Below are positions 33,139 to 36,907 of a stretch of 53,368 nt of DNA, one piece after another. The notes beneath the pieces were generated by a model. The model made no database searches and was not told where the DNA came from. It saw nothing but the letters and a program-made list of their open reading frames with translations. The stretch covers positions 1 through 53,368 of the forward strand of contig NZ_FUWU01000020.1 of the NCBI RefSeq assembly GCF_900167415.1, in the 5' to 3' direction. The translations under genes and the position numbers were made by a program. Numbering within the stretch: position 1 is the stretch's first letter; each line of letters starts with the position of its first letter. The DNA is from Fibrobacter intestinalis (GTDB lineage: Bacteria > Fibrobacterota > Fibrobacteria > Fibrobacterales > Fibrobacteraceae).

Positions 33139-33212
33139 ACGTAATTTTGGACGACTTTGGAGGAAAGCCGCCTATAATTTTCCCGCAAAAAAATAAAAAA
33201 ACGTAATTTTGG
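33139..33212 (+). promoter_or_regulatory. Candidate promoter region of the ECF sigma operon with direct repeats
   Basis: ACGTAATTTTGG occurs twice, at 33139-33150 and 33201-33212, exactly 62 bp apart, with TATAAT at 33173-33178 between them. The repeated word could be a -35 or operator site for the operon's own sigma factor; this is inference. Confidence 0.4.
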
Positions 33213-33246
33213 TGACACTTTTTCTTTCCTCAGGTGTTTAAGAGGC

Positions 33247-33744
33247 ATGAACAAGCAAAGTTTTGCGGAACGTGAAGCCTTTTCCAAATTGTACGAAGCT
33301 TATGCGCCCATGGTTTACCGCCGTTGCGTTTTTATGCTGAAGGACGAAGCGGAAGCCGGAGATATGATGCAGGACGTTTTTCTGCGGATTTTTTCCCGCC
33401 GGGATTCCCTGGATTTATCGGCCCCTTCCAGCCTGCTCTGGAATACGGCCACAAGGCTTTGCCTCAATCGGATTCGTGATAATATCCGTCATGGAGTGCA
33501 CGTGGCAAACGACGATTTGCTTTTGCAGATTGCCTCTGCCCGTGACGAATTTGACGATTACGAAGCCAAAGGCGTTCTGGCAAGAATTTTTGCGAAAGAA
33601 CCGGAATCGACGAGGACCATGGCGGTGCTGCACTATGTGGACGGCATGACTCTTGAAGAGACCGCGGAAGCCGTGGGGCTTTCTGTCAGTGGGGTTCGCA
33701 AGCGTTTACGTTCTCTAAAATCCAAGGTCAAGGAGGTGAAGTGA
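33247..33744 (+). CDS. ECF-family RNA polymerase sigma factor
   Basis: 165 aa. Region 2 (about residues 10-75): LYEAYAPMVYRRCVFML, GDMMQDVFLRIF, and SLLWNTATRLCLNRIRD. Region 4 (about 108-160): VLHYVDGMTLEETAEAVGLSVSGVRKRLRSLKSKV, a helix-turn-helix for the -35 box. Domains 1 and 3 are absent, as expected for group 4 sigma factors. The stop overlaps the next ATG by one base (TGATG), coupling it to a membrane protein expected to be its anti-sigma factor. Confidence 0.95.
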   Translation: MNKQSFAEREAFSKLYEAYAPMVYRRCVFMLKDEAEAGDMMQDVFLRIFSRRDSLDLSAPSSLLWNTATRLCLNRIRDNIRHGVHVANDDLLLQIASARDEFDDYEAKGVLARIFAKEPESTRTMAVLHYVDGMTLEETAEAVGLSVSGVRKRLRSLKSKVKEVK

Positions 33745-34517
33745 TGAAATTTGACGCTCACATTCCAGAGATAAAGCTGGAAAAGTATCTACTGGGGGAA
33801 CTTCCCGAAAAGGAAATGGAAGAAATCCGCCATCGGGCAGAAAAGGACGATGTTCTGCGTTTCCGTTTGCAAGCGATGCGGGAGCAAAATGGGAAAATCC
33901 TCGCAGAGAATCCCTTTGAAAATCTGGCGGAAAAATTTTATGCTGCGGAAAATGCCCGGCCCGCAAAAATTTCGGGAGAGTTCCTTCCGCTGTTTGTAAA
34001 AGTGGCGGCAGCCCTTGTGCTTGCCCTCGGTATTTTTACGGCGATTTTCACTTTTGGGAAATCCGAAACCCTTTTGCTTCAGCCGGAAAACGCCGGAAGT
34101 TCGGATGTGGCCATGGCGGAAACCCGGATTAAGGGAATGCAGGCCCGGATGGAAGTCTGGAAAAAAACGGGGGATTCCGCAGTGCAGCTGCAGGCCAACG
34201 ATTGGGCGCGGGAAGGCGACGAATTGCAGCTTCGCTATCTGGTTCCCGAAAAATGCTTCGGCTTGCTTTTCAGCATGGACGGAAACGGCGTGCTGACGGT
34301 GCACTTGGGAAATGGGGATAAAGCGGTGGCATTGGAACCGGGAAAAATGACGACTTTGCCTTTTGCCTACAAATTGGACAATGCGCCCCATTTTGAAAAA
34401 TTCTTTTTATTGACTTCGGCGGATGCATTTTCGGTAGATGGCTCGGATATTGACAAATCCCTTGCTCAGCCGAAAGTTCAGACCATTTCTTTCACCCTTC
34501 GCAAACAGGAAAAATAG
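33744..34517 (+). CDS. Membrane-anchored anti-sigma-like protein with DUF4384-like periplasmic domain
   Basis: 257 aa from ATG 33744, 5 bases after an ideal AGGAGGTG; an in-frame GTG at 33741 is less well placed. Cytoplasmic N-terminus about 1-80 has the anti-sigma look (IKLEKYLLGELPEKEMEEIRHRAEKDDVLRF), without a zinc HxxxCxxC motif. One membrane helix at about 81-104, then a periplasmic part in which about 128-235 resembles DUF4384 (NDWAREGDELQLRYLVPEKCFGLLFSMDGNGVLTVHLGN). DUF4384 is often found fused to caspase-fold proteases, and the next gene is one. Holding the sigma factor at the membrane is inference from context and topology. Confidence 0.78.
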   Translation: MKFDAHIPEIKLEKYLLGELPEKEMEEIRHRAEKDDVLRFRLQAMREQNGKILAENPFENLAEKFYAAENARPAKISGEFLPLFVKVAAALVLALGIFTAIFTFGKSETLLLQPENAGSSDVAMAETRIKGMQARMEVWKKTGDSAVQLQANDWAREGDELQLRYLVPEKCFGLLFSMDGNGVLTVHLGNGDKAVALEPGKMTTLPFAYKLDNAPHFEKFFLLTSADAFSVDGSDIDKSLAQPKVQTISFTLRKQEK

Positions 34518-34526
34518 GAGGTAGCC

Positions 34527-36809
34527 ATGAAAAACTTTTTCCAAAAATATGTGAAATCCGCCATGGAAAATTTTCCTGGCGACTCGAATGCGCTTCTTTT
34601 TTGTCTTTTCGGATTTTTGATTTTCTGCGTTCCGGCTTTTGCGGCGAATGCGCCCGCTTCCATTGAACGCTACGTCTTCGCCATCAGCGCGAACGACGGC
34701 GGCAAGGACCGCGCCACTCTGCGCTATGCTGAAAGCGACGCCAAGGCTTTTGCTTCGGTGCTCAAGGAATTGGGCGGCGTTCCCCAGAAAAACGTACTTC
34801 TGGTGCACGAACCCAGCCTTTCCCAGTTGAACGCCCGCTTTGACCAGCTGGACAAAATGATTCGCCAGGCAAAGGGGAATAGCGGCAGGGACGAAGTGCT
34901 GGTGTATTACAGCGGCCACGCCGACGAAAAGGGACTCCGCCTGGGTTCGGAACTTTATGTGTGGAGCGAATTTCGCAAACGGGTGGATGCCTTGAGTTCC
35001 GACGTGAAAATTGCGGTTATCGATGCGTGCGGCTCTGGAGCGATTATCCGGGCCAAGGGCGGAGTTTCCGTTCCCGCTTTTATGATGGACAAGAGCAGTG
35101 ATATGAAGGGCTACGCTTTTATTACCAGCAGCACCCAGGACGAATCCAGCCAGGAAAGCGACAAGTTGCAGGGTTCCTTCTTTACCCATTCGCTGGTGAG
35201 CGGGCTTCGCGGTGCAGGGGATGCGAGCGGCGATGGGAAAGTGACCCTTTCCGAAGCTTACCAGTTCGCTTTTAACGAAACCCTTTTGAAAACGGAAACC
35301 ACCATGGGCGGCGCTCAGCACCCCAGCCGGGATATGAATCTGATGGGCACGGGCGACGTGGTGATGACGGATTTGCGCAGCACCAGCGCGGGGCTGGAAT
35401 TGAATGAGGATGTGGATGGTCGCATTTTTGTCCGGGACGAAAACGGCGTTCTCGTTGCGGAACTTTACAAAAAATCCGGACGTGCCATGAGCCTTGGGCT
35501 TCCGGCTGGCAAATACACGGTGCGCTTGGAATGCCCTGCGGAATACAAGGAAACGGCTGTGGCTCTGGTGGATGGCAAGCGGGAACACGTCGGTGCGAAC
35601 CGCTTTCAAAAGGTGGCTGCGGAAGAAACGGTTTCCCGCGGGAATTTGGATAAAAATTGTGCTGCTGGCGATACCGTCAAGTGCTCCTTGGATTCTCTGG
35701 ATCATCACGGCGTTTCTCGGGTCTCCTTCAATGTGGTGGATATCGAAAACAAACCTCGCAAAGGGACGCAACTGGGATTCTTTGTGACAGTCAGCAAGGA
35801 TTACATGCTGGGGAGTCAGGTCAGCCTGCTTGCCAACATCGCCGATAAGGAAATGCACGGAGTTCAGATGAGCGCGCTCTCCAATATCGCCGACGAGCAT
35901 CTGGAAGGGGCACAAATATCCAGCGTCTTCAACTATGCAAATAGCTTTGACGGACTTCAGCTTTCCACGGTGAATGTATTAAGAAATTCATCTCAGGGCG
36001 TGCAGATTGGAACTATCAACGTGGCGACGGATTCCGTTAAATCTTTACAGTTGTCGGTTGTCAATGCCGCCGCTTATGCAAAAGTTCAGGTGGGTGCTGT
36101 GAACGGAGTCGGCGCTTCTGGTACGCAGGTCGGCGTTGTCAATGGTGCGGGAAAAGCCGACGTCCAATTATCCACACTCAATGCAGCGGGAACTTCCGGC
36201 ACGCAGGTCGGCATTGTCAATGTGACCGGAAAATCCACAGGCCGGCAGTGGGGCGTTATCAACGTGTGCGGCAACTGCGAAAACACTCCTATCGGTCTTA
36301 TCAGTTTTGTCGGGAACGGCGTCTGGTCCGCTTCGGGAATTTTCAACGAAATGGGAGGAACGGGCATCAAGGTGGATTTGGGAACGGCCTATTTCTATAC
36401 CAGCTTTGAATCGGCTCGCAATTTCAAGGATGACAAATTATTTGAACGCTATGACCGAATTTTTGAAACCGGTTTTGGCGTGGGAACGCACTTTGGCAGA
36501 TACGGCAGCCATTTTGAACTGGAATACATGTTCCTGAATGTGACCAGCAAATATGCGGACAGCTTTGGCTTTGTCAGCAAGGATGAAAAAACGGCCTTCC
36601 ACCATCGTGTTCGCTTTGGCGCAACCTACCAGCTCTTTACCGGCGTAGGACTTTCCGGAGGCGTTTCCCTGAATTTGGCGACCAGAGGTTACGCCGACAA
36701 AAATCCGCTGAAACCTTTGGGCGATTACCATGCCGACTTCGGTTCGGAAACTCGGGACGGGCGCGTTTGGCCGGGCTTCTATGCCGGGCTGACCCTCGGA
36801 CGATTCTAA
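34527..36809 (+). CDS. Exported caspase-family protease with surface repeats and C-terminal beta-barrel
   Basis: 760 aa. Signal peptide (hydrophobic 20-36, cleavage near AFA at 37-39). Caspase/C14 domain at about 47-275: YVFAISAND, catalytic H131 (YYSGHAD) and C168 (IDACGSG), and a calcium-loop-like D232-x-S234-x-D236-G-K...E243. Residues about 285-350 form a carboxypeptidase-regulatory-like beta module. From about 415 to 600 runs a series of roughly 20-residue repeats with GVQ(I/M/L) and (V/I)N pattern, resembling LA_2272-type surface repeats. From about 610 to the C-terminal F760 the strand pattern is that of an outer-membrane barrel. AGGAGG precedes ATG 34527, 9 bp after the anti-sigma gene. 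Both catalytic residues are present, so activity is expected; substrate unknown. Confidence 0.85.
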   Translation: MKNFFQKYVKSAMENFPGDSNALLFCLFGFLIFCVPAFAANAPASIERYVFAISANDGGKDRATLRYAESDAKAFASVLKELGGVPQKNVLLVHEPSLSQLNARFDQLDKMIRQAKGNSGRDEVLVYYSGHADEKGLRLGSELYVWSEFRKRVDALSSDVKIAVIDACGSGAIIRAKGGVSVPAFMMDKSSDMKGYAFITSSTQDESSQESDKLQGSFFTHSLVSGLRGAGDASGDGKVTLSEAYQFAFNETLLKTETTMGGAQHPSRDMNLMGTGDVVMTDLRSTSAGLELNEDVDGRIFVRDENGVLVAELYKKSGRAMSLGLPAGKYTVRLECPAEYKETAVALVDGKREHVGANRFQKVAAEETVSRGNLDKNCAAGDTVKCSLDSLDHHGVSRVSFNVVDIENKPRKGTQLGFFVTVSKDYMLGSQVSLLANIADKEMHGVQMSALSNIADEHLEGAQISSVFNYANSFDGLQLSTVNVLRNSSQGVQIGTINVATDSVKSLQLSVVNAAAYAKVQVGAVNGVGASGTQVGVVNGAGKADVQLSTLNAAGTSGTQVGIVNVTGKSTGRQWGVINVCGNCENTPIGLISFVGNGVWSASGIFNEMGGTGIKVDLGTAYFYTSFESARNFKDDKLFERYDRIFETGFGVGTHFGRYGSHFELEYMFLNVTSKYADSFGFVSKDEKTAFHHRVRFGATYQLFTGVGLSGGVSLNLATRGYADKNPLKPLGDYHADFGSETRDGRVWPGFYAGLTLGRF

Positions 36810-36821
36810 TTTACTCCTCTA

Positions 36822-36907
36822 AAAAATCGAGAGCAACTATCGCTAGCGGGAAACTTCCAACAAAGCCCCGCAGCTCCAAATCTCAGACAGCAGGTCTCTC
36901 GATTTTT
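36822..36907. terminator. Long stem-loop after the caspase operon
   Basis: AAAAATCGAGAG (36822-36833) pairs perfectly with CTCTCGATTTTT (36896-36907), ending in a T run on both strands; the loop contains GC-rich GCTAGCGGG/CCCCGCAGC that can pair inside. Probably a bidirectional terminator, though the large loop makes another structural role possible. Confidence 0.5.

Follow-up and report, generated by a model that had tools for sequence, protein, structure and literature searches.

A 53,368-nt stretch of the Fibrobacter intestinalis genome (3.29 Mb; contig NZ_FUWU01000020.1, here called the window) carries three tightly coupled genes on the plus strand that encode an extracytoplasmic function (ECF) sigma factor, a membrane anti-sigma protein and an exported caspase. 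The three genes recur together in relatives, are absent together where the caspase is missing, and have a promoter in common with TonB uptake genes of related genomes. Our preferred reading, to which we assign a probability of roughly 0.55, is that the operon acts as a self-amplifying switch from envelope to transcription, in which the caspase would cut the anti-sigma protein at or near K131-G132 and thereby free the sigma factor. An initial annotation of the window had described the trio and proposed that the protease acts on the anti-sigma protein. Its coordinates, domains and gene coupling were confirmed, and to it we add the shared promoter with its TonB-linked sites and an R-x-K-G motif that occurs both in the anti-sigma protein and in a loop of the caspase.

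The sigma gene (P0001, 33247..33744) encodes a protein of 165 amino acids (aa) with matches to Sigma70_r2 (4e-11), Sigma70_r4_2 (9e-7) and TIGR02937 (1.6e-21), all above cut-off. It has the sigma2 and sigma4 regions, lacks sigma1 and sigma3, and lies in the size range of about 160-200 aa, and it was assigned to the ECF sigma factors as the annotation had done. The start of the anti-sigma gene (P0002, 33744..34517) overlaps the sigma stop codon; the best start is the ATG at 33744, with AAGGAGG immediately upstream, while residue numbers of this protein are counted from the GTG at 33741 that was used in the computations. The caspase gene (P0003, 34527..36809) encodes 760 aa, and its ATG is preceded by AGGAGG.

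We measured conservation of the trio in two samples, the first consisting of 69 caspase loci drawn from 61 related genomes by whole-genome searches and the second of 80 loci retained from a separate scan of genomes of named species. Caspase relatives were present in 49 of the 61 genomes. Absence of conserved linkage was one of several findings that the initial annotation had named as counting against its proposal, and the linkage was very strong: an ECF sigma gene lay no more than 2.5 kb upstream of the caspase gene in 59/69 loci of the first sample, and the canonical order of sigma, anti-sigma and caspase was found in 67/80 loci of the second. In the set of 59 loci the protein encoded between sigma and caspase was almost always 230-330 aa long with one transmembrane (TM) helix near residue 80-100. 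The remaining 10 loci comprised eight caspase genes without an adjoining pair and two artefacts of contig edges or of open reading frame (ORF) calling. Trios were also present in records that label themselves Gemmatimonadetes (L258), Acidobacteria (L260) and uncultured proteobacterium (L262), with a partial second case in Acidobacteria (L261).

All 12 of the 61 genomes with no caspase relative also lacked close homologues of the sigma factor and the anti-sigma protein. Where a genome held several trios, the distances between sigma factors and those between caspases correlated at 0.943, compared with at most 0.901 in 2000 within-genome reassignments, so that none of the 2000 shuffles reached the observed value. 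The linkage is thus far beyond chance, and judging by these sequences each paralogous trio is passed on as a whole. No sigma or anti-sigma gene of the trio families adjoined the same-phylum caspases from outside the trio clade. One genome of the same genus without a trio contains two small adjacent caspase genes (L266; G003 C1 512817-514334), which belong to another clade and have no neighbouring sigma gene. Apparent anti-sigma-caspase fusions, seen as long caspase ORFs in four GC-rich loci (L066, L067, L069, L070), were rejected as frame artefacts of open upstream frames. A locus on the Rippkaea orientalis plasmid pP880101 (L263, 2435-5693), in which a caspase-domain gene is followed directly by a gene annotated as sigma-70 family, was also excluded from the system; its sigma protein belongs to another type and exceeds the trio sigma factor in size, and the two genes have no anti-sigma gene between them.

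A predicted ECF promoter with a -35-like GTGACAC and a -10-like GGTGTTTAA was located on the plus strand at 33212..33241, its first base 35 nt from the sigma ATG (upstream sequence GTGACACTTTTTCTTTCCTCAGGTGTTTAAGAGGC-ATG). The consensus among relatives was GTRACACWTT-N11-RGTGTTWMA. This element stood exactly 35 nt before the start codon at 66/80 sigma sites and 21/25 caspase sites, and a leaderless mRNA is therefore predicted. The strict pattern gave 22 matches in the 61 genomes and none for the reversed control. With up to one mismatch, the promoter was present in 28 of the 35 genomes that have a close sigma homologue but in only 3 of the 26 that do not, and in these three it precedes a caspase gene or a caspase remnant. 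In one genome (G008; L090, 3267-3551) the promoter lies directly before the last 94 caspase residues, and the sigma and anti-sigma genes are gone. Genomes of the Fibrimonadales type have the caspase gene away from the sigma/anti-sigma pair, yet with its own copy of the promoter, and another genome (G028) has the promoter before both the sigma gene and the caspase gene. The caspase gene therefore shares the sigma promoter regardless of its position. We infer that this sigma factor reads the GTRACACWTT-N11-RGTGTTWMA promoter.

Other genes of relatives also carried the promoter. In Fibrobacter-like and several other genomes it precedes a TonB-dependent receptor with a Plug domain and a lipoprotein, and further sites precede an operon of DUF3450, long ExbB, ExbB, ExbD, TonB and tetratricopeptide repeat (TPR) genes, ExbB-ExbD-ExbD clusters, an FMN reductase and an LA_2272-repeat protein. 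Seven loci of Fibrobacter-like genomes (L157, L159, L163, L166, L168, L173 and L175) have a second DUF3450-ExbB-ExbB-ExbD-TonB-TPR operon behind the trio promoter, adjoining the TonB receptor and a lipoprotein that starts CDFHGPWEYYPE. The co-occurrence of DUF3450 with the trio was discarded as evidence, being uninformative when nearly all genomes have another DUF3450 copy. The window itself contains a direct repeat, ACGTAATTTTGG, at 33139-33150 and 33201-33212, 62 nt apart; the second copy ends on the first base of the promoter, and the repeat may be an extra regulator site.

The initial annotation had called the second protein a one-pass membrane protein with an anti-sigma-like N-terminus, and this description held. 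Its AlphaFold2 model (mean predicted local distance difference test score, pLDDT, 85.6) consisted of helices at residues 10-71, a TM helix at 82-105 (33984..34055), a disordered linker at 107-126 (pLDDT<50) and an immunoglobulin (Ig)-like beta-sandwich at 136-255 (34146..34505). The cytoplasmic helical domain, single TM, periplasmic domain and sigma-adjacent gene are the layout of a membrane anti-sigma protein. The distant positional homologues have the HxxxCxxC zinc motif, and 7/39 homologues matched zf-HC2. The protein itself lacks these zinc ligands, and we class it as a zinc-less homologue of the zinc anti-sigma (ZAS, zf-HC2) proteins. By homology it is an anti-sigma factor that would bind the neighbouring sigma factor. 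No FecR domain was found in the protein at E<=1 or in the 39 homologues at E<=0.01. A DUF4384-like periplasmic domain had also been proposed. This was borne out in 18/39 homologues (E<=0.01; best 7.7e-10), but the match of the protein itself was weak (E 0.028, 15 bits against a Pfam cut-off of 27), and we refer to the domain as DUF4384-type. A fold search with the model returned only generic Ig-like matches to the periplasmic domain and barely probed the cytoplasmic helices, and comparison of the anti-sigma and caspase profiles with the sequences of solved structures gave nothing useful.

R129-I-K131-G132 (34125..34136), a candidate caspase cleavage site, lies where the disordered linker meets the periplasmic domain and was modelled as coil adjoining the linker. 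K131 was present in 38/39 and 51/51 sequences of two alignments and G132 in 39/39 and 50/51 (each 89/90 overall), and the distance from the TM helix to R-x-K-G ranged from 9 to 88 residues among homologues. Two Chitinispirillia genomes (L088, L089) have, after a sigma paralogue, a gene for an anti-sigma protein that keeps the cytoplasmic domain and TM helix and lacks both R-x-K-G and DUF4384; no caspase gene is adjacent there. Two further loci (L086, 3518-4228; L087, 2154-2864) encode orphan anti-sigma-like membrane proteins whose DUF4384-like domain lacks K-G, and these adjoin a gyrB/parE-like gene and have no adjacent sigma or caspase gene. These four loci link the caspase with the periplasmic portion of the anti-sigma protein, although they represent no more than one or two evolutionary events.

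The third gene product was found to be an exported caspase with a C-terminal barrel, as had been annotated. A signal peptide was recognized by inspection at about residues 1-40. The protein matched PF00656 Peptidase_C14 (2.3e-12), and in structure comparison its model (pLDDT 77) aligned over the caspase fold (residues 43-286; 34653..35384) with procaspase-7 (Z 14.7) and Arabidopsis metacaspase 4 (Z 14.6). H131 and C168, noted earlier as intact, were invariant in 78/78 relatives, and this fold with its His/Cys dyad makes the protein a C14 caspase. The reported surface repeats were recovered above cut-off as the LA_2272 repeat (NF047436, 32 bits against 25). LA_2272-type repeat proteins without a caspase domain were also seen at two other loci (L180, 1596-2588; L048, 7516-8874), one behind a trio promoter and the other just upstream of a trio. 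The C-terminal beta-barrel (residues 598-759; 36318..36803) superimposed on the N-terminal barrel of OprF with Z 14.7 and a root-mean-square deviation of 1.9 over 116 residues, and matched NspA at 5e-4 in Foldseek. The ends of such OprF-like barrels face the periplasm, and the caspase should therefore project into the periplasm from its anchor in the outer membrane and face the outer half of the anti-sigma protein. This predicted topology, a single TM helix in one protein and an outer-membrane barrel in the other, agrees with the earlier placement of the protease and the outer half of the anti-sigma protein in one compartment.

The acidic pocket positions D71 and D166 were likewise invariant in 78/78 relatives. 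They were equated by sequence motif, without superposition, with Asp95 and Asp211 of TbMC2, the trypanosome metacaspase residues that accommodate basic substrates (PMC6426788). Caspase homologues of the metacaspase/orthocaspase kind cleave after Arg or Lys (PMC7475262). The pocket is typical of such Arg/Lys-cutting enzymes, and a basic specificity is predicted. The catalytic Cys is followed by a loop that the model shows as poorly ordered (residues 169-213, pLDDT<50) and that contains R175-A-K177-G178 (35049..35060), a candidate self-processing site with K177 and G178 in 78/78 relatives and R175 in 65/78. R-x-K-G is thus common to the putative activation loop of the caspase and the putative substrate site of the anti-sigma protein, which we take as a lead to specificity that falls short of proof. 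An EF-hand-like loop, D232-x-S-x-D-x-K-x-T-x-x-E243 (35220..35255), corresponds to the calcium-loop-like motif of the initial annotation; D232 and E243 were present in 78/78 relatives and D236 in 70/78, and with this conservation calcium control of the caspase is possible.

In the proposed switch, the membrane anti-sigma protein would keep the sigma factor bound at the inner membrane, and the caspase, which its barrel would fix to the periplasmic side of the outer membrane, would be activated by an envelope signal. It would then cut the periplasmic juxtamembrane linker of the anti-sigma protein, most likely at or near R129-I-K131|G132, and so remove the DUF4384 domain. A site-2 protease would finish the anti-sigma protein; the source genome encodes one such protease of family M50. 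The freed sigma factor would transcribe its own operon and, in many relatives, TonB-dependent uptake genes, and since this would yield more caspase the feedback would be positive. Gene linkage, domains, co-loss and the shared promoter are results of the analysis and the topology is predicted from it; we infer that the anti-sigma protein binds the sigma factor, that and where it is cut, in which direction the cut acts, the site-2 step and the signal. The switch is partly supported by the anti-sigma assignment, the single TM helix, the predicted periplasmic outer-membrane-anchored caspase and the plausible cleavage motif with its counterpart in the caspase loop. Also in its favour are the conserved trio with its co-loss and co-inheritance, the invariant catalytic and acidic pocket residues, the promoter that stays with split caspase genes, the M50 protease, and DUF4384 together with the zinc anti-sigma domain of homologues, DUF4384 being fused to orthocaspases elsewhere (PMC7475262, PMC6426788). 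The loss of R-x-K-G and DUF4384 in the Chitinispirillia genomes without an adjacent caspase counts for it too.

Several points weigh against the switch. The two Chitinispirillia genomes are sisters and count as one event. The cyanobacterial caspase of the excluded plasmid locus, outside the system, has KG in the same loop at another register, so that K-G in a caspase does not by itself identify the system, and in both trio proteins K-G might have a structural role. The compartments of the trio proteins are predictions. The promoter sequence forms an imperfect inverted repeat, and some other regulator could use it as an operator. In the source genome no promoter site beyond the operon's own was found at up to one mismatch, and no second target; no homologue of the promoter-linked TonB receptor was present, and the DUF3450 match lies elsewhere. 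The regulon claim for this genome is therefore limited to autoregulation.

The same findings bear on three other explanations. The caspase could be an output of the sigma factor, which would be freed by a DegS- or Prc-like protease or by FecR-like contact with a TonB receptor, while the caspase processes surface or TonB proteins. Its place as third gene suits an effector, its gene bears the regulon promoter even when unlinked, and the other promoter targets are envelope proteins, including the receptor and an LA_2272-type repeat protein. A pure effector, however, need not stay beside its anti-sigma protein across phyla, loss of the periplasmic half of that protein goes together with lack of an adjacent caspase, and with its single promoter site in the source genome the trio would regulate only itself; we consider this explanation unlikely, though deserving of serious thought. 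The relation could also be reversed, with the anti-sigma protein or its DUF4384 domain restraining or docking the caspase, or with the caspase providing negative feedback that keeps the sigma factor off. Fusion of DUF4384 to orthocaspases in other bacteria (PMC7475262) suits a binding or regulatory domain, and a caspase gene under the sigma factor's own promoter is compatible with negative feedback. Such a reversal by itself leaves unexplained why the catalytic dyad is invariant and why an exposed basic linker motif is kept, and we judge it quite improbable. That the three genes are chance neighbours with separate roles has nothing in its favour beyond the general abundance of ECF operons; recurrent linkage, co-loss, the shared promoter and co-inheritance contradict it, as does the lack of such neighbours beside same-phylum caspases of other clades, and we give it hardly any credence.

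The preferred switch was compared with known systems. Regulated proteolysis of an anti-sigma factor is exemplified by RpoE-RseA with DegS and RseP, which resembles the trio in its ECF sigma factor, its one-pass anti-sigma protein, a periplasmic first-cut protease (proposed for the trio) and an available site-2 protease. The trio protease differs in being an outer-membrane-tied caspase of the same operon, whereas DegS is a PDZ serine protease, and the trio anti-sigma protein differs from RseA in its DUF4384-type domain. FecI/FecR cell-surface signalling likewise combines an ECF sigma factor with a membrane anti-sigma protein, and a TonB receptor and machinery lie under the trio promoter in relatives; unlike FecR, the trio anti-sigma protein has no FecR domain and is linked to a caspase, and in the promoter-linked receptor Plug was found and no STN domain reported.

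Craspase Csx29/Csx30 (PMC10028731) also has a caspase-clan protease adjoining a sigma factor, with proteolysis proposed to free the sigma factor. It is a cytoplasmic RNA-guided TPR-CHAT enzyme (PMC10028731), whereas the trio caspase belongs to C14, is exported and anchored in a membrane, and is accompanied by a membrane anti-sigma protein; it had no TPR or CHAT match, and neighbouring ORFs, inspected without running Cas models, showed no obvious Cas gene. In CalpL/CalpT/CalpS (PMC11417357) sigma release is under protease control too, but there the protease is of the Lon type and responds to cyclic oligoadenylate; the trio has no such parts. ECF54, with CHAT and subtilase neighbours (PMC8999054), shares the context of an ECF sigma factor with caspase-clan proteins; it is proposed to act without an anti-sigma factor, in contrast to the trio, whose membrane anti-sigma protein is encoded between the sigma factor and the caspase. 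Orthocaspases with DUF4384 (PMC7475262, PMC6426788) share the caspase-DUF4384 association and the predicted basic P1 specificity, but within one polypeptide, while in the trio DUF4384 is on the anti-sigma protein and the outer-membrane barrel on the caspase.

Downstream of the caspase gene we found a terminator-like hairpin on the plus strand (36822..36907; minimum free energy -25.5 kcal/mol, z -3.3), which none of 200 shuffles equalled. It is followed by a gene for an exported 318-aa protein (P0004, 36990-37946) with no Pfam or NCBIfam match. This gene follows the caspase in a sister genome as well (G001, L008), but it was rejected as a fourth operon member because the hairpin stands between the two genes.

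The gene trio is widespread and apparently undescribed. No paper linking an envelope caspase to an anti-sigma factor was found in an incomplete search, and an ECF group entry with caspase neighbours may exist. The fullest form of our proposal is that an outer-membrane-tethered caspase turns an envelope signal, possibly calcium-dependent, into transcription through an anti-sigma R-x-K-G that mimics its own activation site, as a caspase-gated, self-amplifying counterpart of RseA/FecR controlling TonB uptake across Fibrobacterota and also in other phyla; we hold it tentatively, at a little under even odds. Discussion of bacterial caspases usually centres on cell death or phage defence, and to our knowledge the physiological roles of most of them are unknown. 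If a conserved caspase has as its partners a sigma factor, the membrane inhibitor of that factor and a defined promoter, bacterial caspases would gain a signalling role, for which substrate, cleavage site and reporter are all predicted and jointly testable. The switch might also be of use in engineering as a protease-controlled device. Fibrobacter is a cellulose digester, and for gut Fibrobacter species the trio points to a way in which a second TonB uptake machine may be controlled.

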